This document shows positions 18,948 to 31,624 of a DNA stretch of 64,000 nt, piece after piece. The DNA is taken from NCBI GenBank assembly GCA_040221175.1, contig JAVJVK010000019.1:434001-498000 (forward strand). Direction: 5' to 3'. The notes below the pieces were generated by a model. That model was given only the letters and a program-made list of their open reading frames with translations. It ran no database searches and was not told the DNA's origin. Numbering within the stretch: the first letter of the stretch is position 1; every line of letters starts with the position of its first letter. This DNA comes from Phycisphaerales bacterium. GTDB lineage: Bacteria > Planctomycetota > Phycisphaerae > Phycisphaerales > UBA1924. The position numbers were made by a program, and so were the translations under genes.

Positions 18948-19528
18948 CAGTGAATTTCCATCGACCAGATTCGGATCGCCGGCTTCTCGCGGATCTCGAT
19001 CATGTCATAGCCACCTTCCACGTCTGCACCCTCGTTCTGCACGACCAGTGACGCAACGGCTCCAGATTCGCACGGGCAGCCGATCCACAGCCAGCCATCC
19101 TGCCTGAACCACTCGCAAGCCGCCGGTGATCGTTCGGGAACAGAGAGAGCACGCACGTCATTCGGCAGACCGGTTCCCATGGCCTTGGAAAGCGCCTCTT
19201 TGCGCGTCCAGAGTTCCAGGAGCCCACGGGCATCGCGGGGCGGCGCCGGATGCACCAGCGAAGCCATCTCCGTGAGTTCGCTCCAGGGCCGCAATCGCTC
19301 GACATCGATGCCAACGGCGCCGCACGTGCCCACCACGCACATCGCCAGATCATCGGTTCTTGAGAGCGAGGCTGCAAAACCTTCAACCCGCGGCGGTTGG
19401 CCGGCCTGGTGCCCAACCGGACGATCCTCGCCTGCCTCGAGCGCCACCGCCTGACCGAGCAGGTCTCGGGCCAGTTCAGGCCGTTGGCGCTGGCCGGGCG
19501 CCCGCTGCGACCACACGCTCAGGCGCAT
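18944..19528 (-). CDS. 4'-phosphopantetheinyl transferase (Sfp/Gsp-like)
   Basis: A 194-residue protein with the two PPTase signatures, G-I-D-V-E-R near residue 70 and W-T-R-K-E-A-L-S-K-A near residue 107. The Asp and Glu residues of these motifs bind Mg2+. Such enzymes load carrier proteins with phosphopantetheine. It is slightly shorter than Sfp. No carrier protein, FAS or PKS gene is present in the window, so the target is unknown. The start shares one base with the stop of the upstream pseudopilin gene (TGATG), so the two are translationally coupled, a pairing with no obvious functional reason. Confidence 0.85.
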   Translation of the reverse strand: MRLSVWSQRAPGQRQRPELARDLLGQAVALEAGEDRPVGHQAGQPPRVEGFAASLSRTDDLAMCVVGTCGAVGIDVERLRPWSELTEMASLVHPAPPRDARGLLELWTRKEALSKAMGTGLPNDVRALSVPERSPAACEWFRQDGWLWIGCPCESGAVASLVVQNEGADVEGGYDMIEIREKPAIRIWSMEIHC

Positions 19529-20574
19529 CAGTCGATCCAGAACTCAGCAGAAATCTGACCACCTTCGCCTGGCAGTACTCTTGCGATCGGCCGCAGGTAG
19601 TTGTTCTTCTGGTCCAAGGCGCCCGGGCCGCCGGGGGCCCCATCGCCGCGGATCGTGCCGCGACCATCCCGGCCGCGCACTTGGCTGATTTGTTCGTCGA
19701 TGAGCGCCCGGCTGTGGTCATGTTCGGCGTGGAACAGATTGTCGGGTCGCGTCATCCTGGTCGGATCGGAGATGCCCGCGAACGTCCAGGTCAGGTAGGT
19801 CGGCGCTGCCTGCGTGTAGAACTCCACGTGCTGGTCGTTGAACCCGACGTTGCCGTGCCATTGGTCCTTCGGGCCGTGGATGGCCATGGTCGTCGAGCGT
19901 GCACCGAAGCTGTTGCCTGGGATTGGCTCCCACAGGTCGTTCTTGAGCGTGAACGCAGGACCGCGATTTCCCAGGCAGGCCTGCGTGGCGCTGAACGTGT
20001 TGCTCCACAGGTACGCACGATCGTCGAACCAGGGCGCCTGGGCGTAGGAGTTATGGCTCGGGTCGCCGACCTTACCGGGGATGCCGCCTCCCCACTCGTC
20101 CAGTGGCGTGCCGCGAAACGCAGGATCCCAATACGCGTTGCCCGGAGTCACGGCGGCCGATGGACTGGCGGACTGGTAGGGATACATCACGTCGACGTTA
20201 CCCATCTCTGCCGGGCTTACGGTCAGTTCGACCGGGAAGAAGCCGTTCCATATGAGCAGCGAAAGCATGTTGCCCGTCGTGTCAAGCCGGCGATCAGCAC
20301 CAACGAGGCCATCGGGCCTTGAGATGGTGGCGCCCGTCAGATCGACTTCGCTGGGGATCGGGTATTGCTCGTTGTTGTTCTGGGCCCAAATCGCCGCGGC
20401 CTGGACGATGCCTCGAACCTGGGTCGAGTCTTTGAGGAATCTCGGCCCGTGGTGATGGTTGCGGAACCCACCGACCAGCGGGAGGGCGATCAGCGTGAGC
20501 AGGACCACCACGCCGATGACGACGAGTAGTTCGATGGCCGAAAAGCCCCGACCCATATCTTGCCTCGACCGCAT
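19528..20574 (-). CDS. Type II pseudopilin-like protein (planctomycete type)
   Basis: A 348-residue protein with a prepilin leader: M-R-S-R-Q-D-M-G-R-G then F-S-A-I-E-L-L-V-V-I-G, with Glu at position +5 after the Gly cleavage site and a long hydrophobic helix. The remainder is a large soluble domain with A-I-H-G-P-K-D-Q-W-H-G-N-V-G-F-N-D-Q-H-V, resembling the H-x9-D-G ends of the large pseudopilin families of planctomycetes (DUF1559-like). It would be processed by a prepilin peptidase and lie in the inner membrane/periplasm. AAGGAG lies 9 nt before ATG 20574. Coupled to the downstream PPTase gene. Confidence 0.8.
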   Translation of the reverse strand: MRSRQDMGRGFSAIELLVVIGVVVLLTLIALPLVGGFRNHHHGPRFLKDSTQVRGIVQAAAIWAQNNNEQYPIPSEVDLTGATISRPDGLVGADRRLDTTGNMLSLLIWNGFFPVELTVSPAEMGNVDVMYPYQSASPSAAVTPGNAYWDPAFRGTPLDEWGGGIPGKVGDPSHNSYAQAPWFDDRAYLWSNTFSATQACLGNRGPAFTLKNDLWEPIPGNSFGARSTTMAIHGPKDQWHGNVGFNDQHVEFYTQAAPTYLTWTFAGISDPTRMTRPDNLFHAEHDHSRALIDEQISQVRGRDGRGTIRGDGAPGGPGALDQKNNYLRPIARVLPGEGGQISAEFWID

Positions 20575-20719: not shown

Positions 20720-21745
20720 ATGGCCACAGCCAAGCCCACGCGCCGTCGTTCTTCCATCCTTACCATTGCCCTAACCCTGCCGTTGCTGGCTGGTGCCCTA
20801 CCCGTTGCGTTTGCGCAGCAGACCGAGGAATCTCCGCGCAGCTATCAATATGAGCCGTCGTGGGCTGCCGAGTTCGGTGGCATCTACCACTTTACCCAGC
20901 CCAGCAAGGACGCCATGATGGGCTTCAGCCAGCCCAGCGAGGTGCGGCAGGTGCTGGTGAGCGTGGGCGACAAGGTGGAAAAGGGCGACGTGCTCGTCCG
21001 GGCTCGGGATGCGGACATTCAGGCGGCCCTGCGTCTTCAGCAGCGGCGGGCCAAGAACCGCTTCGAGATCCTGGCGGCCGAGAACCGCGTGAAGCTGGCT
21101 CAGATCGAGTTTGACAACCAGCAGGCCGCCCAGGACCAGGGGGGTGGCAGCACGCTGGAGTACGAGCGTGCCAAGGCCTCTCTTGAAAACGCCAAGATCG
21201 AGCTCGACACCGCCAAGGAGCGGTTTATCGAGCAGGGCATCGCGCTGGAGCGGCAAGAAGCCGAACTCGAGCGATTCGCCGTCACGGCCCAATTCGACGG
21301 AACCGTTGCGGCGATCGAAGTGACGCCCGGTCAGGCGATGCAGGACAGCGAGCCGGTGCTGCGTCTGGTGTCGATTGACCCGTTGCAGGTGAAGGTGCCC
21401 ACCCCGACGAGCACGGTGCTGGCCGAAGGGATCGCCCGCGGCGATGCGGCGTGGGTGGCGGTGAGCGTGGCCGGGGAGCCCCGGTTGTTCGAGGGCACGG
21501 TGACCGAGGTGAGCCCGGTGGCGGACTTCGGCTCGGACAAGGTGTGGGTCAAGGTCGAGATGGCCAACCCGGATCGCCTTCTTTCGGGCTTGCCGGCCTG
21601 GGTGCGCTTCAGCGAGCCGACCGAGGCCTTCATGCGCATCCTTGCGGAGCATGAGGCCCAGAACGAGGCACGACAGGACGCGCGGGCGACCGAGAACGAT
21701 GGGGAGCAGCAGGGCGCGCCCGCCCTGGCCGCCGACGCCGGCTGA
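20720..21745 (+). CDS. Periplasmic adaptor (HlyD/membrane-fusion family)
   Basis: A 341-residue exported protein with an N-terminal signal (T-R-R-R-S-S-I then a hydrophobic core ending V-A-F-A-Q). It has a lipoyl-like half motif V-R-Q-V-L-V-S-V-G-D-K-V-E-K-G-D-V-L-V, a coiled-coil hairpin (about 95-185), the second half F-D-G-T-V-A-A-I-E-V-T-P-G-Q-A and a beta-barrel-like C-terminus, then an acidic Gln/Ala tail. Such adaptors bridge inner-membrane exporters to the outer membrane. No RND pump or ABC permease is next to it; instead it heads a four-gene group with two more HlyD-type proteins and a SecA-like motor, suggesting one envelope-spanning assembly. Confidence 0.85.
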   Translation: MATAKPTRRRSSILTIALTLPLLAGALPVAFAQQTEESPRSYQYEPSWAAEFGGIYHFTQPSKDAMMGFSQPSEVRQVLVSVGDKVEKGDVLVRARDADIQAALRLQQRRAKNRFEILAAENRVKLAQIEFDNQQAAQDQGGGSTLEYERAKASLENAKIELDTAKERFIEQGIALERQEAELERFAVTAQFDGTVAAIEVTPGQAMQDSEPVLRLVSIDPLQVKVPTPTSTVLAEGIARGDAAWVAVSVAGEPRLFEGTVTEVSPVADFGSDKVWVKVEMANPDRLLSGLPAWVRFSEPTEAFMRILAEHEAQNEARQDARATENDGEQQGAPALAADAG

Positions 21746-21838
21746 CCGGCACGCGGCCCAACAAGAACGAATCGAGCGTGGCCGGCCGCAACAGGTGGTC
21801 GGCTACGCGATTGACCCGTTGCCCCGAGAGGAGCGACC

Positions 21839-23833
21839 GTGACGGATATCTCTAATCTGCGAACGCCCGCGTGGCGGCGTGTGGTCGAGGAACTCTCGGC
21901 CGAGTCGCCCAACGCCACGACCTTCCTCGCCCGCCTGTGCGTGGTCCTGACCCGCGTGGCCAACGCCCGCCAAGGGTCGGTGGTCATCGTGTCGGCCAGC
22001 GACACGCAGGACCAGGGCGCCGAGGAACCTTCGATCGCGTTCGCCGTCGCCGCCGGTGAAGCGCAGGGAGGCAGGCCGGCCGAACCCCGCCGCATCGATC
22101 CCGGGCAGATCGAACACGGCTCGTGGGTGCGTTCGGCTGCGGCAGAAGCCGTTCGTGGCGGCGAGGCCCGCGTGTTCGCACTTGGTGGCACGAGTTCGCC
22201 GATGTATGGCGCCGGCGGCGACAGCGGGGCCGTGATTGCGGGCGCGATCGATCTGCCTTTAGGCGGCGGCCACAAGGCGGCTATCTGCCTGACCATCGAG
22301 CAACGCTCACGCGAGGCAACGCAGACGACGATGGCGCTCGTCGAAGTCCTGTGCGGCTATGCCAAGTTGCACGCGGCCAGGCAGGAGGCCAAGGGCGCGT
22401 GGCAGTCGTCGGCCGCTCTGGATCTGGCGGGCCGGTTGATTGCCTCGATCAACGAGGCCTCGGGCTTCAAGGGCGCGTGCATCCAGCTTGCCAACGACCT
22501 CTCACGGGCCGCGTCGGCGGATCGGGCCGCCATCGGCTGGGTACGCGGACTCGGGGATTCGGGCGTGGTCCGCGTCCAGGCGCTGAGCGACACCGAGCAC
22601 GTCGACCGCCGGCTGCACATGGTGCGGATGCTCCAGGCCGCGATGGAAGAGTGCTACGACCAGGCCCACGCGGTGGTCTACCCCGTCCCAAAGGCGCCCC
22701 AGGGCGCCCAAGCCGAAGAGGGCGAGCCGGCCGTCGACCCGACTCTGGCGGCGGCAGTCACCCACGCCCACCGGCAATTGGCGTCCTCTGACGCACGGTT
22801 GAAGGTTGCGTCGCTCCCCATTCGCGCGGGCGAGCGCGTGGTGGGCGTGGTCACCATCGAACTCTCCGAAGAAGATCAGCTCGAGCCGGCGAAGCTCGAG
22901 TTGTTGCAGGCAACGCTGGACCTCGTTGGGCCCGTCATCGAGCTGCGCCGCAGCGATGATCGTCCAATTCCCCAGCGCGCATGGCACAGCATGCTCAAGA
23001 GCGGCACGTGGCTGGTGGGCCCACGGCACACGGCGTGGAAGGTTGCCGCACTGGTTGCCTTGCTTGTCCTACTGGTCGTGACGTTCGTGAAGATTCCCTA
23101 CCGGGTCGACGCACAAGCCGAGCTGCTTGCGGTGCACGAGCGCTCCGTGGCCGCGCCGTTCGCGGGCATCATCGCCGGCGTGCCTGAAGGCATCCGCCCG
23201 GGCGTACAGGTCGCCAAGGGCGATCTGCTCATGCAACTGGACACGACGGAGCTGCGCGAGAGCCGCATCGATGCGCAAGCGTCGGTTTCCTCGGCTCGTC
23301 GCGAGGCCGACGAGGCGCGCAAGGAGGGCGACCTGAACGCCGCCGAGCAGGCGCTCGGCCGGCTGGAGCAGGAGCAGGCCAGGTTGCGGTACATCGACAC
23401 GCAGATCGAGCGATCGCGGATCATGGCTCCGATCGACGGCACGATCGTCTCGGGCGACCCGCGGCGGATGATCGGTTCGGCGATCAATATTGGCGAACCC
23501 ATGTTCCGCATCGCCAGCCTCGACCAACTCGAGGTCGTCGCGCGCGTGCCGGACAGCGACATTGGTTATGTCTCGCCCGAGAGCGTCGGTGGGTTTGCTA
23601 CACGCGCCCGGCCCGGCGAGCGGTTCCGCTTCAGCGCGAGCAGCCTGGTGCCCATGGGCCAGCCCGACGAGGGCAGCAACGTGTTCGAACTGCGTGGCTC
23701 GCTGGAAGACCCGCCCGGTTGGTTGCGGCCGGGCATGGAGGGCATCGCCTACATCGACACTGGCGACAAGCGGATCATCTGGGTGCTCAGCCGACGGCTG
23801 CTCGACACCGCGCGTCTCTGGTTGTGGTATTAA
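21839..23833 (+). CDS. GAF domain-transmembrane-HlyD fusion protein
   Basis: A 664-residue protein. The N-terminal about 390 residues are cytoplasmic, with a GAF-like sensory fold at about 195-370 (helical segment A-L-D-L-A-G-R-L-I-A-S-I then L-P-I-R-A-G-E-R-V-V-G-V-V-T-I-E). One transmembrane helix follows (about 402-424). The periplasmic part is HlyD-like: S-V-A-A-P-F-A-G-I-I, G-V-Q-V-A-K-G-D-L-L, a coiled coil and I-M-A-P-I-D-G-T-I-V-S-G-D. This would couple a cytosolic small-ligand or protein signal to a periplasmic adaptor. GTG 21839 is preceded by GAGAGGAG. It follows the first adaptor by 93 bp and precedes the M50 gene by 12 bp. Confidence 0.82.
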   Translation: MTDISNLRTPAWRRVVEELSAESPNATTFLARLCVVLTRVANARQGSVVIVSASDTQDQGAEEPSIAFAVAAGEAQGGRPAEPRRIDPGQIEHGSWVRSAAAEAVRGGEARVFALGGTSSPMYGAGGDSGAVIAGAIDLPLGGGHKAAICLTIEQRSREATQTTMALVEVLCGYAKLHAARQEAKGAWQSSAALDLAGRLIASINEASGFKGACIQLANDLSRAASADRAAIGWVRGLGDSGVVRVQALSDTEHVDRRLHMVRMLQAAMEECYDQAHAVVYPVPKAPQGAQAEEGEPAVDPTLAAAVTHAHRQLASSDARLKVASLPIRAGERVVGVVTIELSEEDQLEPAKLELLQATLDLVGPVIELRRSDDRPIPQRAWHSMLKSGTWLVGPRHTAWKVAALVALLVLLVVTFVKIPYRVDAQAELLAVHERSVAAPFAGIIAGVPEGIRPGVQVAKGDLLMQLDTTELRESRIDAQASVSSARREADEARKEGDLNAAEQALGRLEQEQARLRYIDTQIERSRIMAPIDGTIVSGDPRRMIGSAINIGEPMFRIASLDQLEVVARVPDSDIGYVSPESVGGFATRARPGERFRFSASSLVPMGQPDEGSNVFELRGSLEDPPGWLRPGMEGIAYIDTGDKRIIWVLSRRLLDTARLWLWY

Positions 23834-23845
23834 GGGGGCGCTGGC

Positions 23846-26023
23846 ATGACTGACCGCCCGACCTTCAGCCCCATGTGGAGCCGCGTGCGTGCGATGAAGC
23901 CGCGCCTGCGGAGCCACACCCAGATCACCCGCCAGCACTATCGCGGCCGGCGATGGCACGTGGTGCACGACCCGGCCAGCAACCAGTTCTACCGCCTCAC
24001 GCCCATGGCGTACGAGTTCGTTTGCCTGCTGGATGGCAAGCGGACGGTCGAAGAGACTTGGAAGCTGTGCCTGGAAATGCACGGCGACGCGGCCCCAACG
24101 CAGGTGGAGACCGTCGAGCTGATCAGCCAGCTCTACAACGCGAACCTGCTGAAGGCCGACGACACGCCCGAGACCGAGCAGTTGCTGACCCGGGCCCGCC
24201 AGCGCATCAAGAAGAAGGCCATCGGCCAGGCGATGGGCATCATGTACTTCCGCATCCGGCTATTCAATCCGGACGCCATCTTCACGGCCGTCGAGCCCAT
24301 CGTGCGGCCGATCCTCAACCGCTGGGGCTTCCTTGCCTGGTGCGTGCTGCTGCTGAGCGCCATCGTCGCGCTGACGGGCGAGGTGGGCGCGCTGTTCGAC
24401 ACGGAGCGCTTCCAAGGTGCCATCGCGCCGGCCAACTGGCCGTGGTTGATCGTCGTGTTCATCATCAGCAAGATCATCCACGAGAGCGGGCACGGGCTGG
24501 TGTGCAAGCGCTTCGGCGGGCAGGTGCCCGAGCTTGGCATCATGATGCTCGTGATGTTCCCGGCGCCGTTCGTCGATGCGTCGAGCACCTGGGCCTTCCC
24601 CAGCAAGTGGCAGCGGATGGCCGTGGGCGCCGCGGGCATGATCTTCGAACTGGCCGCGGCATCGGTCGCCGCGTTTGTGTGGCTCTCGACGCTCGACACC
24701 GGCGGCGTGGTGAACCAGTTTGCCTACAGCGCGATGCTCACGGCCAGCATCAGCACCATCCTCTTCAACGCCAACCCGCTCATGCGATTCGATGGATACT
24801 ACATCCTCAGCGATTTGCTCGAGGCGCCCAACCTCATGCAGCGGGCCCAGAACCTGATCAAGTATCAGTTCCAGCGGTACATGTACCGCATCAAGAACGC
24901 CAAGCCCCCCACCGTGCAGCCCGGCGAGCGGCCATGGCTGATCGCCTATGGCTGGGCGGCGATGGCCTATCGCGTGTTCCTGTTCTTCTCGATCACGCTG
25001 TTCGTGATGGGCCAGATGTTCGGCCTGGGGCTCGTGCTGGCGATCTGGACGGCCACGGTGTGGTTCGTCATGCCGCTGGGCAAGTGGACGCACTGGCTGG
25101 CCACCAGCCCGCTGATCGCCGACAAGCGCGGCCGCGTGGTGCTGACCAGCCTGGCCGCCGTGGGCCTGGCGGGCCTGATGGTGGGCGCCGTGCCGCTGCC
25201 CGACTACCGGCGGGCCAGCGCGGTCGTCGAGAGCGAACAGTTCACGGGCGTATTTGCCGGCAGCGACGGGTTCGTCGACGAGGTGTTCGTGGCCCCGGGC
25301 CAGTATGTTGAGGCGGGCCAGCCCATCGCGCGGGCCGAGAATCCGGAGTTGCTGGCCCAGCTCGAGCGGACGATGGGCGCCTTCCGCGAGCTCGAGGCCC
25401 GCTTCCGCTCGGCCATGGCCCAGGACGTGCCCGTGGCCGACCTGATGACCGAGCGGCGCGGCGTACTGCTCGAGCGGCTGGCGTTCCTGCAGGAGCGCGT
25501 CGACGCCCTGACGATGCGAGCGCCACACGCGGGCACGATCGCCGACGACCCACGCCGGCTGGCCGGCCAGTACGTGCAGCAGGGCGCCCCGGTCTGTACG
25601 GTGGTGGCCAGCGACGACATCCGGATCGTCGCGTCGATGGACCAGCGGCAGGCCGACTGGCTGGCGGCCATGAGCTTCGGCGACGACTTCTCGGCCCAGG
25701 TCCGCCGGCGCACCCAGCCGGAAGTGGCCTACCCGGTCACCGAGTTCGAGCGTCGCGACGCGGGCGACCGCACGCTGCCGCACCCGGCGCTGGCCGACAT
25801 CGGCGGTGGCCAGGTCCAGACCGATCGCCGCCAGGACCAGACGCCCCGGGCCACGCGTCCGCGGTTCATCGTCGAGATGGACGCCGACTTCGGGGACAAG
25901 GCCGGCCGCCCGCCGCTGCCCGGCGAGCGCGTGGCGGTGCGGTTCGCGTTGCCGCCGCGTCCGTTGCTGGGCCAGTGGGTCGACCGGCTGCGGCAGCTGA
26001 TCCAGGGACGGATCGATATCTGA
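23846..26023 (+). CDS. PqqD-like/M50 site-2 protease/HlyD fusion
   Basis: A 725-residue multidomain membrane protein. Residues about 28-110 resemble PqqD-type peptide recognition domains (H-V-V-H-D-P-A-S-N-Q-F-Y-R-L-T-P, then L-L-D-G-K-R-T-V-E-E). About 160-465 is a polytopic M50 metalloprotease with H-E-S-G-H at 212-216 and N-P-L-M-R-F-D-G-Y-Y (Asp316) as the third ligand. The C-terminal part is HlyD-like (F-A-G-S-D-G-F-V-D-E-V-F-V, then M-R-A-P-H-A-G-T-I-A-D-D-P). This layout is related to YydH-type peptide zinc metalloproteases linked to peptide export. The catalytic residues look intact. Immediate neighbours are the GAF-HlyD gene and the SecA-like gene, 2 bp downstream. Confidence 0.85.
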   Translation: MTDRPTFSPMWSRVRAMKPRLRSHTQITRQHYRGRRWHVVHDPASNQFYRLTPMAYEFVCLLDGKRTVEETWKLCLEMHGDAAPTQVETVELISQLYNANLLKADDTPETEQLLTRARQRIKKKAIGQAMGIMYFRIRLFNPDAIFTAVEPIVRPILNRWGFLAWCVLLLSAIVALTGEVGALFDTERFQGAIAPANWPWLIVVFIISKIIHESGHGLVCKRFGGQVPELGIMMLVMFPAPFVDASSTWAFPSKWQRMAVGAAGMIFELAAASVAAFVWLSTLDTGGVVNQFAYSAMLTASISTILFNANPLMRFDGYYILSDLLEAPNLMQRAQNLIKYQFQRYMYRIKNAKPPTVQPGERPWLIAYGWAAMAYRVFLFFSITLFVMGQMFGLGLVLAIWTATVWFVMPLGKWTHWLATSPLIADKRGRVVLTSLAAVGLAGLMVGAVPLPDYRRASAVVESEQFTGVFAGSDGFVDEVFVAPGQYVEAGQPIARAENPELLAQLERTMGAFRELEARFRSAMAQDVPVADLMTERRGVLLERLAFLQERVDALTMRAPHAGTIADDPRRLAGQYVQQGAPVCTVVASDDIRIVASMDQRQADWLAAMSFGDDFSAQVRRRTQPEVAYPVTEFERRDAGDRTLPHPALADIGGGQVQTDRRQDQTPRATRPRFIVEMDADFGDKAGRPPLPGERVAVRFALPPRPLLGQWVDRLRQLIQGRIDI

Positions 26024-26025
26024 CG

Positions 26026-28059
26026 ATGGACACGACCGCGCACATCCCCCCGCCCGCGCCCGGCCCGTCGGTCAGCGAGCTGACACGCTACGAGGTCATG
26101 TTCCAGGCGCTGCGCGCCCGGCAGCGCAAGCCCGAGCACTACGGCGGGCTGGACAAGGTCGCCGTCATGGCGCGGGCCCGGGCCGATCGGCTGCGCACGA
26201 CGACGCGGCACCTCTTGGCCGAGGCCAGGCGCGTCGATGCGCTGCGCCCCACCATCGTCGACCTGACCGAGGCGCAGCTCGACGAAGCGGTGCGCACCGC
26301 CCGCGAGGCGTTCGTGCGCGGGCGGGCCGACGCCGAGCAGCTCCGCCACGCCATGGCCCTCATGCGCGAGGTTGCGCGTCGGCAGACCGGCCAGGAGCCC
26401 TACGTCGTGCAGCTCGCCGGCGCGCTGGGGCTCTACCACGGCCGCGTCGTCGAGATGGCCACGGGCGAGGGCAAGACGCTCACCGGCTCGATCGCCGCGC
26501 CGCTGATCGCCTGGAGCCGCACGCGGCTGCACGTGCTGACGGTCAACGACTACCTCGCCGCCCGCGACGCCGAGAGCCGCCGGCCCATCTACGAGCGCTG
26601 CGGGCTGACGGTGGGCGCGATTACCCAGGAGCTCAGCCCCCAGGACCGCGCGGGCGTGTACGCCAGGCACATCGTCTACGGCACGCCCAAGCAGATCACC
26701 GCCGACTGGCTGCGCGACCAGCTGCGCATCGGCCGCCTCAAGACGCCCTGGACCGGCCGCCAAACACTCGCGCGCTTTGGCGACCGCCCCGAGGCGGCGG
26801 CCTTCAGCCCGCTGGTGCCGGGCCTGCACGCGGCGCTCGTCGACGAGGCCGACGCCGTGCTCATCGACGAGGGCGTCGTCCCCCTCATCATCGCCCAGGC
26901 GCGCAAGGAAGACGAGATGAGCGGGGTCTACGCCACCGCCGCCCGGCTGGCCGCCCGGCTGGACGAGGGGCCCGACTACACCATCGAGCACGTGCGCCGC
27001 CGGGCCGAGCTGAAGCGCCGCGGCCGCGAGCGGCTCAAGGACCTGTTCGCGAAGGAAGAGGACGCCATCTGGCGCGCCCCCCGCCGCGCCGAGGAGCTCA
27101 TCAAGCAGGCGCTGGCCGCCCGGCACTGCTACCTGCGCGGCCACCACTACCAGATCGTCGACGGGCGGGTCGTCATCGTCGACGAGTACACCGGGCGATA
27201 CCTGGCCGACCGCTCGTGGGAGCACGGCCTGCACCAGGCGGTCGAGGCCAAGGAGGGCGTGGAGGTCACCGCCGACCGCGAGACCCTCGCGCGTGTGAGC
27301 TTCCAGCGGTTCTTCCGTTCCTATCGGTTCCTCGCGGGCATGAGCGGCACGGCCATCGACGCCCGCAGCGAGATCGAGGCGGTGTACTCGCGCCCCGTCG
27401 TCGTCATGCCCACCAACGAGCCGCTCATCCGCGAGCAGTGGCCGACGCGGATCTTCCGCTCGGCCAGCGCGAAGTTCGCGGCCATCGTCGACTCGGTCGT
27501 CGCCCAGCACGCCCAGGGCCGGCCCGTGCTCGTGGGCACGCGGTCGATCGAGGTGAGCGAGCGGATCAGCGAACGACTGGAAGCCCGCGGCCTCGCGCAT
27601 CAGGTCTTGAACGCCAACTTCGACAAGACCGAGGCCGAGCTGATCGCCCAGGCCGGGCGCAGCGGGGCCATCACCGTGGCGACCAACATGGCCGGCCGCG
27701 GCACCGACATCATGCTCGACGAGAAGTCGCGCGACGCCGGCGGGCTGCACGTGATCCTGACCGAGCTGCACGCCTCGAAGCGCATCGACCGGCAGTTCAT
27801 CGGCCGGGCCGGGCGCCAGGGCGACCCGGGCAGCGCGCAGATCTTCGCGAGCCTCGAGGACGAGCTGGTCGAGCACAACGCGCCCGGGCTGGCCGGCTTC
27901 GTCCGCCGCCGCACGGCCCGTGAGGAGGTCGGCGGCAACCGCCTGGCGCGCCTGGCGGTCACGCGCAGCCAGCGCCGGGCCGAGCACCGCGACCGCATCA
28001 ACCGCGGGCACGTCATGCGGCAGGACGACTGGATCGAGAAGCATTTGCCGGGCGGCTAG
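26026..28059 (+). CDS. Short SecA-like translocase ATPase (paralogue)
   Basis: A 677-residue DEAD motor of the SecA family. NBD1 has V-E-M-A-T-G-E-G-K-T (Lys150), V-N-D-Y-L-A-A-R-D-A and V-D-E-A-D-A-V-L-I-D-E; later come V-D-E-Y-T-G-R, L-A-G-M-S-G-T-A, T-N-M-A-G-R-G-T-D-I and G-R-A-G-R-Q-G-D-P-G-S. Housekeeping SecA is usually 850-950 residues; here the helical scaffold/wing region and the C-terminal zinc or lipid tail after NBD2 are missing, leaving about 60 residues. The first about 115 residues also diverge. It is therefore a specialised motor, expected to work with the M50/HlyD proteins just upstream. Its 3' end overlaps the convergent exported-protein gene by 47 bp. Confidence 0.88.
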   Translation: MDTTAHIPPPAPGPSVSELTRYEVMFQALRARQRKPEHYGGLDKVAVMARARADRLRTTTRHLLAEARRVDALRPTIVDLTEAQLDEAVRTAREAFVRGRADAEQLRHAMALMREVARRQTGQEPYVVQLAGALGLYHGRVVEMATGEGKTLTGSIAAPLIAWSRTRLHVLTVNDYLAARDAESRRPIYERCGLTVGAITQELSPQDRAGVYARHIVYGTPKQITADWLRDQLRIGRLKTPWTGRQTLARFGDRPEAAAFSPLVPGLHAALVDEADAVLIDEGVVPLIIAQARKEDEMSGVYATAARLAARLDEGPDYTIEHVRRRAELKRRGRERLKDLFAKEEDAIWRAPRRAEELIKQALAARHCYLRGHHYQIVDGRVVIVDEYTGRYLADRSWEHGLHQAVEAKEGVEVTADRETLARVSFQRFFRSYRFLAGMSGTAIDARSEIEAVYSRPVVVMPTNEPLIREQWPTRIFRSASAKFAAIVDSVVAQHAQGRPVLVGTRSIEVSERISERLEARGLAHQVLNANFDKTEAELIAQAGRSGAITVATNMAGRGTDIMLDEKSRDAGGLHVILTELHASKRIDRQFIGRAGRQGDPGSAQIFASLEDELVEHNAPGLAGFVRRRTAREEVGGNRLARLAVTRSQRRAEHRDRINRGHVMRQDDWIEKHLPGG

Positions 28060-28663
28060 CGCGGCGGCGCGCAGCGAGCAGGCCGAAGAGCACGAGCGCG
28101 CCGGCGGGCGCGGGGACGACGACGATCGTGCCGGCGCCCTCGGTCAGGCCGTCCAGGCGGCTCTCGCTGATGGCCGAGGAGCGCTCGATGTAGACCGCGA
28201 ACGCGGTCGTCTGCGTCGAGAGGTCGACCTCGAATCCACCAGCGTCGGACGGTGCGGTGAAGGTCGCCTGCCAGAAGGCGATCGGATCGCTGTCGTCGGC
28301 GGGGATCATCGCTGGCGGAAACAGCAACTGACCGGCGATGATGCCCGCGTACCCGCCGGCGTCGGGCGTGCCGAAGGTCGTGCCCGGCCCGTCCATCGGT
28401 GCGACGAGCACGACGTCGGACCAGGCGGACGCGATGTCGACCCCGCCCGAATCGGCCAGCAGGCTCGTGGCGACGCCGGCCATGGCGAAGTCCCGGGTGC
28501 TGTCGAAGCCGGCCCAGAGGCGGACGGTGGTCGATTCGCCCGGCGCCAGCACGGGCTGGTCGATCTCGATGATGACCTCGCCGGGCATCTGGGCGTGGGT
28601 GAGGCCGGCACAGACGGCCAAAGCGGCGGCGGACGCGGCGGCGGCGGTGGGCGTGGCGATCAT
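28013..28663 (-). CDS. Exported protein with V-P-A-P C-terminal signal, paralogue A
   Basis: A 216-residue member of a local five-copy family. It has a signal peptide, a domain opening I-I-I-E-I-D-Q-P-V-L-A-P-G-E-S-T-T-V, the family core V-L-V-A-P-M-D-G-P-G-T, and D-P-I-A-F-W-Q-A-T-F-T-A. The end is V-V-P-A-P-A-G-A-L-V-L-F-G-L-L-A then A-R-R-R, a PEP-CTERM-like sorting signal; unlike its sisters it continues about 13 residues beyond the Arg cluster. ATG 28663 has GGGGAAG upstream. The open frame continues upstream through the 21-bp repeats to 29080, but the signal peptide argues against that start. It overlaps the convergent SecA-like gene by 47 bp. Confidence 0.75.
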   Translation of the reverse strand: MIATPTAAAASAAALAVCAGLTHAQMPGEVIIEIDQPVLAPGESTTVRLWAGFDSTRDFAMAGVATSLLADSGGVDIASAWSDVVLVAPMDGPGTTFGTPDAGGYAGIIAGQLLFPPAMIPADDSDPIAFWQATFTAPSDAGGFEVDLSTQTTAFAVYIERSSAISESRLDGLTEGAGTIVVVPAPAGALVLFGLLAARRRASRPANASRSSRPAA

Positions 28664-28801
28664 GGTTCTTCCCCGAGATTGGCCGCCCGGCGGGCGCCGG
28701 GCAAACGAGAAGCTCGCGTTCCGATACGGGCCGTGGTCCTCGTGCGGTTGTGTGGGTCCGGAAACAGCGGGAATCGGCCCGCACGGGCCCCGGGGGCCGC
28801 T

Positions 28802-29053
28802 GACGGGTCCGAGAACGGCGGTGACGGGCCTTCGGGTTGCTGTGACGGAAGGACCGTTGGCTGTAACGGAAAGACGGTTACCGCTGACGGAAAGACGGGC
28901 GGCTGTGACGGAAGCACGGTTACCGCTGACGGAAGGACGGGTGGCCGTGACGGAAGGACCGTCAACGCCGACGGAAGGACGGTAAGCCATGACGGCAGGA
29001 CCGGTTGCTGTGACGGAAGGACGGTTCACGCTGACGGAAGGACCGTTGGCGGT
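28802..29053. repeat. Twelve tandem copies of a 21-bp repeat
   Basis: Units start every 21 bp from 28802 to 29033 with no phase slip, consensus near GACGGAAGGACGGTTGCTGT. Copies at 28865-28948 alternate between two subtypes, giving a 42-bp higher-order period. The array fills most of the 432-bp gap 28664-29095 between paralogues A and B. All units keep one frame open on both strands, so it reads as heptapeptides, but nothing suggests it is translated. Function unknown. Confidence 0.85.
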
Positions 29054-29095
29054 GACCGACGCTCGCGCAGCATTCGCCAAGGTCCGTATATCGCC

Positions 29096-29683
29096 TCATC
29101 GACGCCGGCGGCCCAGCGCGAGCAGGCCGAGCAGGGCGAGGCTGGTCGCCGGGGCGGGGGTGATGTTGACGCGTGCCGAGCCCTCGATCAGGTCGCCCAG
29201 GCGGCTCTCGCTGGTCGCCGAGTCGCGATCGACGTAGACGTCGAAGCGATCGGTCTGCGTCGAGAGTTCGAGCACGCCGGGCTCGGCGCCGGACGGCACC
29301 GTGTAGCGTGCCTGCCAGAAGGCGATCGGGTTGGAGGGGTCGGCGAAGATACCGGCGATCGGGAAGTTGAGCTGCCCGGCGATGATGCCATCGATCCCGG
29401 TGCCCGAAACAAGACCGGCGGAGGTGCCCGGCCCGTCCATCGGGGCGACGAGGCTGATGTCCGACCAGCCCTCGCTTCCACGGCTGCTGACGAGGCTCGT
29501 CGCGATGCCCGCGATGGCGTAATCGCTTGCGTCGTCGAACTGCGCGAACATGCGGATGATCGTCGATCCGCCCACGGTCGGGATGTCGGGATCGTCGGCC
29601 TCGATGATGAGGCGCGGGGCGGTCTGGGCGAGCGCGGTGCTGGCGGCAGCGAGGCAGGTGAGAGCGAAGGCGTGCGTACGCAT
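29096..29683 (-). CDS. Exported protein with P-A-P C-terminal signal, paralogue B
   Basis: A 195-residue paralogue. Signal peptide M-R-T-H-A-F-A-L then A-A-S-T-A-L-A-Q. The core shows D-I-S-L-V-A-P-M-D-G-P-G-T, G-I-I-A-G-Q-L-N-F-P, A-D-P-S-N-P-I-A-F-W-Q-A and S-E-S-R-L-G-D-L-I-E-G-S-A. The C-terminus is I-T-P-A-P-A-T-S-L then a hydrophobic stretch and G-R-R-R-R. It is the last of four tightly packed genes (E, D, C, B) and starts 9 bp after the end of C. The fold is unknown; the opening strand pattern (I-D-x-P-x-x-x-x-G-x-S-T) is reminiscent of cohesin-like or choice-of-anchor domains. Confidence 0.8.
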   Translation of the reverse strand: MRTHAFALTCLAAASTALAQTAPRLIIEADDPDIPTVGGSTIIRMFAQFDDASDYAIAGIATSLVSSRGSEGWSDISLVAPMDGPGTSAGLVSGTGIDGIIAGQLNFPIAGIFADPSNPIAFWQARYTVPSGAEPGVLELSTQTDRFDVYVDRDSATSESRLGDLIEGSARVNITPAPATSLALLGLLALGRRRR

Positions 29684-29692
29684 GGGTGGCTC

Positions 29693-30298
29693 CTATTCGA
29701 TGGTGCTTCGACGTCGATGCAGGGCGGCGAGGCCGAACATCAGGATGGCAGCGCCCGCCGGCGCGGGGATCACGAAGATGCTCGCCGAATCCTCGAGGGC
29801 GAGGTCGAGGCGCGACGCGGCGATGCCCGAATCGCGGTCGGGCCAGGCGTCGAAGCGCAGCGTCTCGGTGAGCAGGTCGACGCGGTAGCCGCCCCCGGCG
29901 TCGACGGGCGCGGTGAACGTGGCCTCCCAGAACGCGATCGGGTTGGTCGGGTCGGCGAAGATGCCCGCCGCCGGGAAGTGCAGCTGGCCGATCACGATGC
30001 CTTCGATGCCGCGATCGGTGGGCACGCCCGCGGTCGGGCCGGCGTCCATCGGGGGCAGGATGGACAGGTCGCTGAAGCCGCGCGCCCCCGGCGTGCCGTC
30101 GAAGTCGATCAGCAGGTTGAGGTTGGTGCCCGCGAAGGCGTAGTCGGTGTCGAGCACGGTGGCGATCAGCCGCACGCGGGTCGAGTCGCCCGGCGCGAGC
30201 ACGGGCTCGTCGATGTCGATCGTGACGCCGACGGTCTGCGCGTGCGCGGTGGCGGCGGCGGAGGCCAGGATGGCGGCGGCGGCGATGGTCGTGTGCAT
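29693..30298 (-). CDS. Exported protein with V-I-P-A-P C-terminal signal, paralogue C
   Basis: A 201-residue paralogue. Signal peptide followed by V-T-I-D-I-D-E-P-V-L-A-P-G-D-S-T-R-V. Here the central motif is P-P-M-D-A-G-P instead of the A-P-M-D-G-P-G of the sisters. It keeps I-V-I-G-Q-L-H-F-P-A-A-G-I-F-A-D-P-T-N-P-I-A-F-W. The end is V-I-P-A-P-A-G-A-A-I then a hydrophobic stretch, H-R-R-R and four extra residues. Lies 27 bp downstream of D in the same operon. Confidence 0.8.
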   Translation of the reverse strand: MHTTIAAAAILASAAATAHAQTVGVTIDIDEPVLAPGDSTRVRLIATVLDTDYAFAGTNLNLLIDFDGTPGARGFSDLSILPPMDAGPTAGVPTDRGIEGIVIGQLHFPAAGIFADPTNPIAFWEATFTAPVDAGGGYRVDLLTETLRFDAWPDRDSGIAASRLDLALEDSASIFVIPAPAGAAILMFGLAALHRRRSTIE

Positions 30299-30325
30299 GG
30301 ATCTCTCCTTCGTTCCGGCGTGGCG

Positions 30326-30919
30326 TCAGCGGCGGCGGCGGCGCAGCGCGAGCAGGCCCAGCCCCAGCGCGGCGCCGGTGGCCGGCGCGGGGACGACGTG
30401 GATCTGGCCCGCGCCCTCGACCAGGACGTCCAGGCGCGACTCGCTGCGGGACGACGCGCGATCGGGGTACACCTCGAAGCGGCTGGTGCGGGTGGAGAGA
30501 TCCACGCGGGAGCCGGCCGCGTCCGCGGGCGCCGTGAACGTGGCGGTCCAGAACAGGATCGGGTTCTGCGGGAAGCCGTAGATGCCCGCCGGCGGGAAGT
30601 GCAGCTGGCCGGCGATGATGCCTTGGAAGCCGCCCGAGCCGTCGGGGACGCCCGGGGTCGTGCCCGGCCCGTTCATGGGCGAGACGAGGGCCCAGTCGCT
30701 CCAGGCGCCCGAGATGTCGGCGGTGGTGTCGGCGACCAGATCGGTCAGGATGCCCGCCACGCCATAGTCGCTGGTGGTGAACGAGGCCTCCAGCGTGAGG
30801 GCGGTGCTGTCGCCGGGGGCCAGAAGGGGCTCGTCGATCAGGATGTTGATGTTGACCGTCTGGGCCGACGCCAGGCCGGCGGTCGCGGCAAGGGCGGCGA
30901 TGGTGATCGGGGTTTGCAT
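30326..30919 (-). CDS. Exported protein with V-V-P-A-P C-terminal signal, paralogue D
   Basis: A 197-residue paralogue. Signal peptide T-A-G-L-A-S-A-Q, then N-I-L-I-D-E-P-L-L-A-P-G-D-S-T. Core elements: L-V-S-P-M-N-G-P-G-T, G-I-I-A-G-Q-L-H-F-P-P-A-G-I-Y, and S-E-S-R-L-D-V-L-V-E-G-A-G. The end is V-V-P-A-P-A-T-G-A-A then a hydrophobic stretch and R-R-R-R-R. Lies 26 bp after E. Hydrophobic stretch plus Arg cluster suggests membrane retention and processing by an exosortase-like enzyme, none of which is seen in the window. Confidence 0.8.
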   Translation of the reverse strand: MQTPITIAALAATAGLASAQTVNINILIDEPLLAPGDSTALTLEASFTTSDYGVAGILTDLVADTTADISGAWSDWALVSPMNGPGTTPGVPDGSGGFQGIIAGQLHFPPAGIYGFPQNPILFWTATFTAPADAAGSRVDLSTRTSRFEVYPDRASSRSESRLDVLVEGAGQIHVVPAPATGAALGLGLLALRRRRR

Positions 30920-30945
30920 ATTGCAGTCCTCCTGCGGTGGCTCGA

Positions 30946-31530
30946 TCAGCGACGGCGCGCGAGCACGGCCAGGCCCAGCAGCGGCGCTGCGCTGGCGGGC
31001 GCGGGGACGGGAATGAAGAGCCGCGCCGACCCCTCCACCAGCACGTCCAGCCGCGACTCGCTGCGCCCGGATGTCATCTCGGGGTACACGTCCAGCCGGC
31101 TGGTTCGCGTCGAGAAATCGATGTACCCAACCTCGAGGGCCGTGAACGTGGCCTGCCAGAAGGCGATGGGGTTGGCCGGATCGGCGTAGATGCCCGCGGG
31201 CGGGAAGTTGAGTTGCCCGGCCAGGATGCCCGTCACGTCGAATCTACTGCTGGGTTCTCCGGCCGACGTGCCCGGCCCGTCCATCGGCGCCACGAGTTGC
31301 CAGTCGCTCCACCTGCCCGCTGGAGATCCCAGGGCATCTTCGCCCACGAGGTCGGTTGCGATGCCCGCCACGGCGTAGTCGCCGGTCGAGAACTCGGCCA
31401 GCAGCGTGACCGTGGTGCTCTGGCCACGGGCGATGATCGGATTCTCGATATCGATGGTGAGGTTCACCGTCTGGGCGGACGCCGTGCCGGCGCTCAGGGC
31501 GAGCGAAGCGATCGCGAGCGTTCGGGTCAT
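30946..31530 (-). CDS. Exported protein with V-P-A-P C-terminal signal, paralogue E
   Basis: A 194-residue paralogue and first gene of the array. It starts at ATG 31530 with GGAGG seven to eight bases upstream; an earlier in-frame ATG at 31572 would precede the ribosome site. Signal peptide, then T-I-D-I-E-N-P-I-I-A-R-G-Q-S-T-T-V; core L-V-A-P-M-D-G-P-G-T, A-D-P-A-N-P-I-A-F-W-Q-A-T-F-T-A and S-E-S-R-L-D-V-L-V-E-G-S-A. The end is P-V-P-A-P-A-S-A-A-P-L-L-G-L-A-V-L then A-R-R-R. The close spacing from E to B implies one transcript. Confidence 0.82.
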   Translation of the reverse strand: MTRTLAIASLALSAGTASAQTVNLTIDIENPIIARGQSTTVTLLAEFSTGDYAVAGIATDLVGEDALGSPAGRWSDWQLVAPMDGPGTSAGEPSSRFDVTGILAGQLNFPPAGIYADPANPIAFWQATFTALEVGYIDFSTRTSRLDVYPEMTSGRSESRLDVLVEGSARLFIPVPAPASAAPLLGLAVLARRR

Positions 31531-31624
31531 GTCTTGCCCTCCGGGGATGCTGGATTCCTCGAGGGACAGCATACCGCAAGACTCCGCCGATCCGAAGCCC
31601 TTTTTATCGCATGAGGGCCCCGCG

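Follow-up and report, generated by a model that had tools for sequence, protein, structure and literature searches.

We analyzed a 64,000-nucleotide stretch of a Phycisphaerales genome (contig JAVJVK010000019.1 of assembly GCA_040221175.1, positions 434,001 to 498,000; hereafter the window), in which four co-directional open reading frames (ORFs) encode a stand-alone HlyD-type adaptor, a GAF-HlyD membrane protein, an M50 protease fused to an HlyD adaptor (M50-HlyD), and a short SecA-like ATPase (Table 1). These genes constitute one conserved module and not a chance gene neighborhood. Comparison across genomes gives good support to a link between the module and proteins with an N-terminal LEPR-XLL motif as its candidate cargo, and the module probably acts as a dedicated exporter for these proteins, many of them very large, that is guided by their leaders, powered by SecA, and free of an ATP-binding cassette (ABC) transporter. 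The gene set is already known; the LEPR-XLL cargo link is new as far as the open-licence literature in PubMed Central (PMC) shows.

Conservation of the module and its earlier description

The four genes are separated by gaps of 93, 12, and 2 bp, and high third-position GC in all of them supports the frames. An earlier note on this DNA had described this order, strand, and spacing, with which the ORF coordinates agree, and Pfam and NCBIfam matches confirm the domain make-up it gave for the four products, with the PqqD match below cut-off. We then considered 80 related loci, in which the core genes were placed by tblastn; because these are the best-ranked of 588 confirmed relatives found with an M50 profile in GTDB genomes, they lean toward window-like arrangements. 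A short SecA gene lies within 1.5 kb of the M50-HlyD gene on the same strand at 72 of the 80 loci, GAF-HlyD at 74, and both at 67; the gene set thus co-occurs as the note had supposed, and scattered homologs are ruled out. At the other eight loci M50-HlyD has no adjoining SecA, several of these lying at contig ends; SecA is likewise absent within 1.5 kb at 14 of 30 close Pseudomonadales loci (some at contig ends), and divergent M50-HlyD genes without an adjoining SecA also occur in planctomycetes.

In the organism's own genome, GAF-HlyD, M50-HlyD, and short SecA occur a second time, at about 258.7 to 265.0 kb of contig C19 (L006:8721-14986), where the short SecA (G000:C19:262961-264958) is 43% identical to that of the window. 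Together with a long housekeeping SecA on contig C4, this second short SecA rules out the possibility, raised in the note, that the window protein is the organism's only SecA.

We next looked at what surrounds the module, using Pfam on 103 neighbors (same-strand ORFs of 180 to 1,500 amino acids within 4.5 kb, from loci L078 to L146 only). OEP (14 neighbors), HlyD (10), and SapC (8) recur, and ABC_membrane appears in just two of the 103 and in none of the four module genes, consistent with the note's view that the usual ABC pump is replaced. A cluster of OEP-type proteins, one member of which was checked by Pfam, occurs in 19 of 82 sources. Beside the window copy, no OEP was seen among the four flanking ORFs scanned by Pfam, the wider genome being unsearched for OEP. 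Stop-ended ORFs of at least 1,400 amino acids are present at 19 of the 80 loci, and 18 of these lie upstream on the same strand, 1.9 to 5.3 kb away.

The note knew of no established description of the gene set as one system. This did not stand, and the set cannot count as undescribed: Kamneva, Poudel and Ward (2015; PMC4452313) published a set consisting of a secondary SecA_DEAD protein, M50-HlyD, GAF-HlyD, and HlyD, describing its role as "completely unknown." In the accessible portions of that paper, SecA_DEAD is proposed as the ATPase and M50 as the pore, no ABC transporter is reported in the loci, and OEP proteins are reported in some; no cargo is named there, and the words LEPR, adhesin, calcium, and giant are absent from the main text. 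The paper also names an operon of this kind in Methylobacterium extorquens AM1 (META1p2399-2402). The window module resembles theirs in its GAF-HlyD, M50(-HlyD), and HlyD/biotin_lipoyl proteins, all co-encoded, and in a SecA_DEAD protein that lacks most or all of the wing and scaffold and exists beside a housekeeping SecA. Relative to the accessible text, the present analysis adds the candidate PqqD/RRE-like domain, the DUF3467 and SapC neighbors, and the link to LEPR-XLL. Apart from PMC4452313 and a 2017 paper citing it in passing (PMC5313232), we found no follow-up study and no cargo for the module in the accessible open-licence PMC literature, which likewise yielded a single mention of the LEPR-XLL motif in each of two papers and, in those passages, no stated function for it.

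Co-occurrence and linkage with LEPR-XLL proteins

LEPR-XLL ORFs lie near the module at five of the 80 loci, and NCBIfam model NF012209 confirms all five. For comparisons across genomes, LEPR-XLL was scored as present at an NF012209 match of E ≤ 0.01 and M50-HlyD at E ≤ 1e-20, a threshold fixed beforehand; the cut-offs for "close" M50-HlyD (1e-100 and 1e-80) were chosen after the lists had been seen. Protein searches scored up to nine, three, and five candidates per genome in Planctomycetota, Pseudomonadales, and Verrucomicrobiota, respectively, so that the genomes scored as M50-HlyD-negative may include some that carry the gene, and the P values compare genomes without tree correction. The last two groups are the order of G202 and the phylum of G208, which we take from their records and general taxonomy to be Pseudomonadales and Verrucomicrobiota.

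Among 49 module genomes of mixed phyla, reached via 50 of the 80 loci, 43 encode LEPR-XLL proteins, mostly with one to four hits per genome (22 and 35 in two genomes). Across 119 Planctomycetota genomes, LEPR-XLL is present in 8 of 27 with M50-HlyD against 0 of 92 without (P = 2.8e-6), and in 6 of the 10 in which SecA was seen beside M50; a SecA-adjacent test gives 7 of 11 against 1 of 108, counting G053 as SecA-adjacent though its contig ends beside M50. The association is repeated in 293 Pseudomonadales genomes (32 of 64 with M50-HlyD against 1 of 229 without; P = 9e-24) and in 194 Verrucomicrobiota genomes (14 of 40 against 3 of 154; P = 1e-8), and in both groups LEPR-XLL is more frequent where M50-HlyD is close (22 of 31 and 13 of 14) than where it is divergent (10 of 33 and 1 of 26). 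Within the organism's own order (61 genomes), 37 of 51 relatives with a short SecA (E ≤ 1e-60) and none of the 10 without one have LEPR-XLL (P = 2e-5), as do 26 of 33 and 0 of 4, respectively, within its own family (P = 0.005). No LEPR-XLL match was found in 14 control genomes at E ≤ 0.01; at a loose E ≤ 1, NF012209 matched in seven of them, once above its cut-off.

The genes are also physically linked. Of the 37 Pseudomonadales LEPR-XLL genes, 25 have M50-HlyD within 20 kb and 21 of these within 5 kb, by spans that we estimated from the frame lengths, against a chance expectation that we estimate at about one per cent for random placement in a genome of roughly 4 Mb; of the remainder, one lies at a distance of 53 kb and the other 11 sit on a different contig from M50-HlyD. 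Co-occurrence could in principle stem from shared lifestyle or ancestry and not from function, a reading to which the uncorrected genome comparison, with no family labels for the Pseudomonadales and Verrucomicrobiota samples, lends something; we consider it very unlikely, as the association recurs in three groups and inside one family and is joined by this physical linkage.

Leaders and sizes of the candidate cargo

A regular expression recovered 27 of 35 LEPR-XLL N-termini (eight were left out), and by eye their consensus reads (F/L/V/I)ExLEPRxLLS, in many cases with AD or GD after it, and comes after a variable, often basic stretch. A Sec-like hydrophobic core upstream of the motif was called in 1 of the 27 (L164), two being too short upstream to score, on hydropathy without a signal peptide program or a reference set of known signal peptides; the stretch in L164 perhaps reflects a start codon placed too far upstream. 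When the 30 residues following the motif are included, 4 of the 27 exceed a mean hydropathy of 1.6.

LEPR-XLL frames in the 49 module genomes range from 75 to 18,012 codons, many exceeding 4,000, and reach about 20,000 codons across the genomes surveyed. One such ORF (L114) contains RTX repeats, and the proteins are presumably surface-bound. In Pseudomonadales, frames whose linked M50 has SecA beside it span 4.6 to 14.7 thousand codons (10 cases), against 0.8 to 5.4 thousand for those without SecA in the 1.5-kb flank (8 cases; P = 5e-4, or 4e-4 without G443), in a comparison of hand-picked linked cases, some of whose frames contig ends may have truncated. SecA may therefore be an addition for the longest cargo, an idea against which stand the LEPR-XLL proteins of the organism's own genome, which has SecA.

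That genome encodes five LEPR-XLL proteins of 812, 1,824, 819, 488, and 2,488 amino acids, among them a cyclophilin and a subtilase that also has P and PPC domains. Four loci score above the NF012209 cut-off of 17 bits; the fifth scores 12.3 bits, its motif being recognized by eye. All five (L152 to L156) share a homologous region, with best pairwise blastp matches of 105 to 469 residues (e.g., L153 residues 1363 to 1819 against L156 residues 2043 to 2479; E = 2e-35). It approaches the C terminus in four of the five, and some of the proteins have weak DUF5719 or ASRT matches; the region may be a shared domain for anchoring or export.

The M50-HlyD protein

The window M50-HlyD protein matches Peptidase_M50 and HlyD_3 in Pfam, and its AlphaFold2 model (mf053c666d988) has a mean predicted local distance difference test (pLDDT) score of 84.4. 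It combines the HExxH motif of site-2 (M50) proteases with their distal N/D metal motif: the HESGH and NPxxxxDG motifs that the note had read as intact are indeed present, the latter as NPLMRFDG, and H212, E213, H216, N308, N310, and D316 are unchanged across an alignment (A1) of 16 chosen relatives. HExxH is kept at all of 80 further loci. The M50 part weakly matches the MJ0392 site-2 protease (E = 0.0084), and the adaptor part matches MexA, AcrA, and MacA.

Several observations suggest, short of proof, that the N-terminal domain is PqqD/RRE-like. In the model it folds as three strands followed by three helices, and Pfam PqqD matches 8 of the 16 relatives (E ≤ 0.01), the window protein scoring 20.8 bits, under the cut-off of 23.4. 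When a profile of the region (A5) was run against the PDB, the best matches were PqqD chains 3g2b and 5sxy, weak ones at E about 0.01; the RRE proteins TfuB1, TbiB1, and PaaA followed at E = 0.27 to 0.34, among calbindins and other unrelated chains.

Leader proteases are among the closest known relatives of M50-HlyD. Its best NCBIfam match is daptide_HExxH (NF041824; 2.6e-53), a model that covers residues 20 to 409 and so includes the N-terminal domain, and the YydH/LiaK model also matches (1.3e-11). One might conclude that the module exports a small peptide of the kind termed ribosomally synthesized and posttranslationally modified peptides (RiPPs), the LEPR-XLL link being secondary. We regard this as highly improbable: both scores lie far under their curated cut-offs (181.5 of 300 bits and 44.7 of 225 bits), no recurrent short precursor stood out among the neighbor clusters, which were built from ORFs of at least 70 amino acids, and the Pseudomonadales linkage ties M50-HlyD to LEPR-XLL genes. 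The window protein thus resembles these intramembrane HExxH proteases and differs from them in its sub-cut-off scores, its fusion to an HlyD adaptor, and candidate cargo that consists of large proteins and not peptides.

The short SecA

The short SecA matches SecA_DEAD (1e-80), SecA_PP_bind, and P-loop_SecA in Pfam and NCBIfam, and a TGEGKT-type motif is present in 64 of 69 relatives. Its alignment to Bacillus subtilis SecA ends at residue 607 of the latter; the wing, two-helix finger, and C-terminal tail of a canonical SecA, whose borders we take to lie after that residue, are therefore missing. A protein lacking wing and finger should not push chains through SecYEG in the usual way, and the note's assumption that SecYEG is so used is not upheld. 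Like the accessory SecA2 systems, the module has an extra SecA beside the housekeeping one; unlike them, its SecA is linked to adaptors and an M50 protease, lacks wing and finger, and scores far under the SecA2 cut-offs (TIGR03714, 432 of 930; TIGR04221, 426 of 725; TIGR04397, 469 of 1,085).

This truncation feeds the main rival to an exporter, in which the module translocates no chain at all: LEPR-XLL proteins would cross by SecYEG or another route, M50-HlyD and its partners would process, anchor, or release them afterward, and the short SecA would serve as an unfoldase or assembly ATPase. The invariant M50 active site and the LEPR-XLL-linked M50-HlyD loci with no SecA nearby would also suit such a role. 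Set against it are the near absence of a Sec-type core before the motif (1 of 27 N-termini, within the limits given above), HlyD and OEP neighbors that fit a trans-envelope conduit, and the preprotein cross-linking domain that the short SecA retains, and on balance we judge this rival unlikely.

Adaptors, coordinates, and surrounding genes

The stand-alone adaptor scores 96.1 bits with RND_mfp (TIGR01730; cut-off 94.9) and matches HlyD_D23 (4.6e-12); by eye, its N terminus has a hydrophobic stretch resembling a Sec signal peptide. GAF-HlyD matches Pfam GAF (1.7e-4) and HlyD_D23 (9e-15). Its AlphaFold2 model (m1e3a851034e7; mean pLDDT, 84.8) comprises two alpha/beta blocks, a single transmembrane (TM) helix, and an adaptor domain; the two modeled blocks fit GAF domains. 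The 50 Foldseek matches listed for this model are adaptors throughout, and the GAF fold thus stands outside the structural comparison.

TABLE 1 Coordinates of the module genes and their features in the window
Feature	Position	Strand	Comment
Periplasmic adaptor, stand-alone, HlyD/RND_mfp type	20720..21745	+	341 aa
GAF-TM-HlyD protein	21839..23833	+	664 aa; GTG start
Single predicted TM helix of GAF-HlyD (residues 398-416)	23030..23086	+	Model helix and hydrophobic sequence
Fusion of candidate PqqD/RRE-like domain, M50 intramembrane protease, and HlyD adaptor	23846..26023	+	725 aa; Pfam, NCBIfam, AlphaFold2 model
Candidate PqqD/RRE-like N-terminal domain (residues 26-98)	23921..24139	+	Model: three strands followed by three helices
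HESGH zinc motif (residues 212-216)	24479..24493	+	A1 alignment; place checked
NANPLMRFDG motif (residues 308-317)	24767..24796	+	A1 alignment; place checked
Short SecA-like ATPase	26026..28059	+	677 aa; DEAD motor, preprotein cross-linking domain, second motor domain
Walker A TGEGKT of short SecA (residues 146-151)	26461..26478	+	Nearly invariant A2 alignment columns
DEAD box of short SecA (residues 273-276)	26842..26853	+	A2 alignment columns

Two further families recur beside the module. The small protein DUF3467 (PF11950) adjoins it upstream at 19 of the 80 loci (one query) in several phyla, in some of them between a giant ORF and GAF-HlyD, and lies directly upstream of the second copy in the organism's own genome (L006:8219-8677); to judge from its position it is a possible chaperone or adaptor. 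SapC (PF07277; e.g., L088:5491-6231) has its named members mainly in proteobacterial loci. At L142, the LEPR-XLL ORF and SapC resemble by eye those of Comamonadaceae locus L121, and the contig, from a record titled Akkermansia muciniphila, may be misbinned.

Elsewhere in the window, five tandem, related-looking ORFs (28013-31572, minus strand) have signal-peptide-like starts and, in most, VPAPA...RRRR-type C termini that remind us of what we take to be PEP-CTERM sorting; Pfam gave no match for the two that were searched. An ORF on the other side of the module (19528-20574, minus strand) has a type IV pilin-like N terminus (GFSAIELLVVIGVV) and no Pfam match.

A proposed export route and its implications

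RRE domains bind leader peptides in RiPP enzymes. By analogy, we propose that the RRE/PqqD-like domain of M50-HlyD would bind the LEPR-XLL leader, and that the short SecA would then feed the unfolded chain through or along a membrane complex of M50-HlyD and GAF-HlyD, in place of an ABC transporter. At the membrane, the M50 zinc site may clip off the leader; the HlyD parts would conduct the chain outward together with a TolC-type channel, and the GAF domains could gate or sense. Such a route shares with type I secretion (HlyB-HlyD-TolC) the HlyD-type adaptors, TolC/OEP neighbors at part of the loci, and the RTX repeats of L114; it differs in having a SecA-like ATPase and an M50 protease instead of an ABC transporter as a regular neighbor of the adaptor, and in candidate cargo bearing an N-terminal motif. 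The note's dedicated export route survives in outline, as one module without a regular ABC neighbor and with LEPR-XLL proteins as candidate cargo, and loses the usual role of SecYEG and the novelty of the gene set.

A number of findings weigh against the exporter proposed here. LEPR-XLL went undetected in 6 of the 49 module genomes, 9 of the 31 Pseudomonadales genomes with close M50-HlyD, 14 of the 51 own-order relatives with a short SecA, and 4 of the 10 planctomycete genomes with SecA beside M50, and in the organism's own genome the LEPR-XLL genes are on contigs C4, C7, and C12 while both module copies are on C19. Seven LEPR-XLL-linked M50-HlyD loci (L201, L202, L204, L205, L208, L210, and L211) have no SecA within 1.5 kb, which indicates that SecA is not obligatory, and G034 has LEPR-XLL and M50-HlyD with no SecA adjoining the copy examined (L027). 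Conversely, G388 has a good LEPR-XLL match (E = 4e-8) and no full M50-HlyD; a renewed search of G388, G539, G573, and G633 with the M50 profile gave adaptor-domain matches only, the LEPR calls in the last three being weak matches in frames of 138 to 636 codons. For the M50-HlyD protein itself, the PqqD score below cut-off counts on the same side, as do structure searches with its model, whose listed matches were taken up by adaptors and left the RRE-like and M50 parts uncovered.

Published in 2015, the module has had no cargo assigned to it in the text accessible, and the LEPR-XLL motif has circulated without a stated function that we could find; joined, they form one testable system. If the proposed exporter is real, it would provide Planctomycetota, Verrucomicrobiota, Proteobacteria, and other bacteria with a further way of exporting very large proteins, powered by SecA and independent of an ABC transporter, and would explain why LEPR-XLL N-termini lack a Sec-type core. 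We raise more tentatively, as something possible that we would not yet favor, that this is a separate class of secretion system, in which a SecA without wing or finger drives leader-tagged proteins through a protease/adaptor complex built on M50 while an RRE-type domain reads the LEPR-XLL leader. In that case, the leader-reading logic of peptide natural products would serve the export of proteins encoded in frames that extend to about 20,000 codons.

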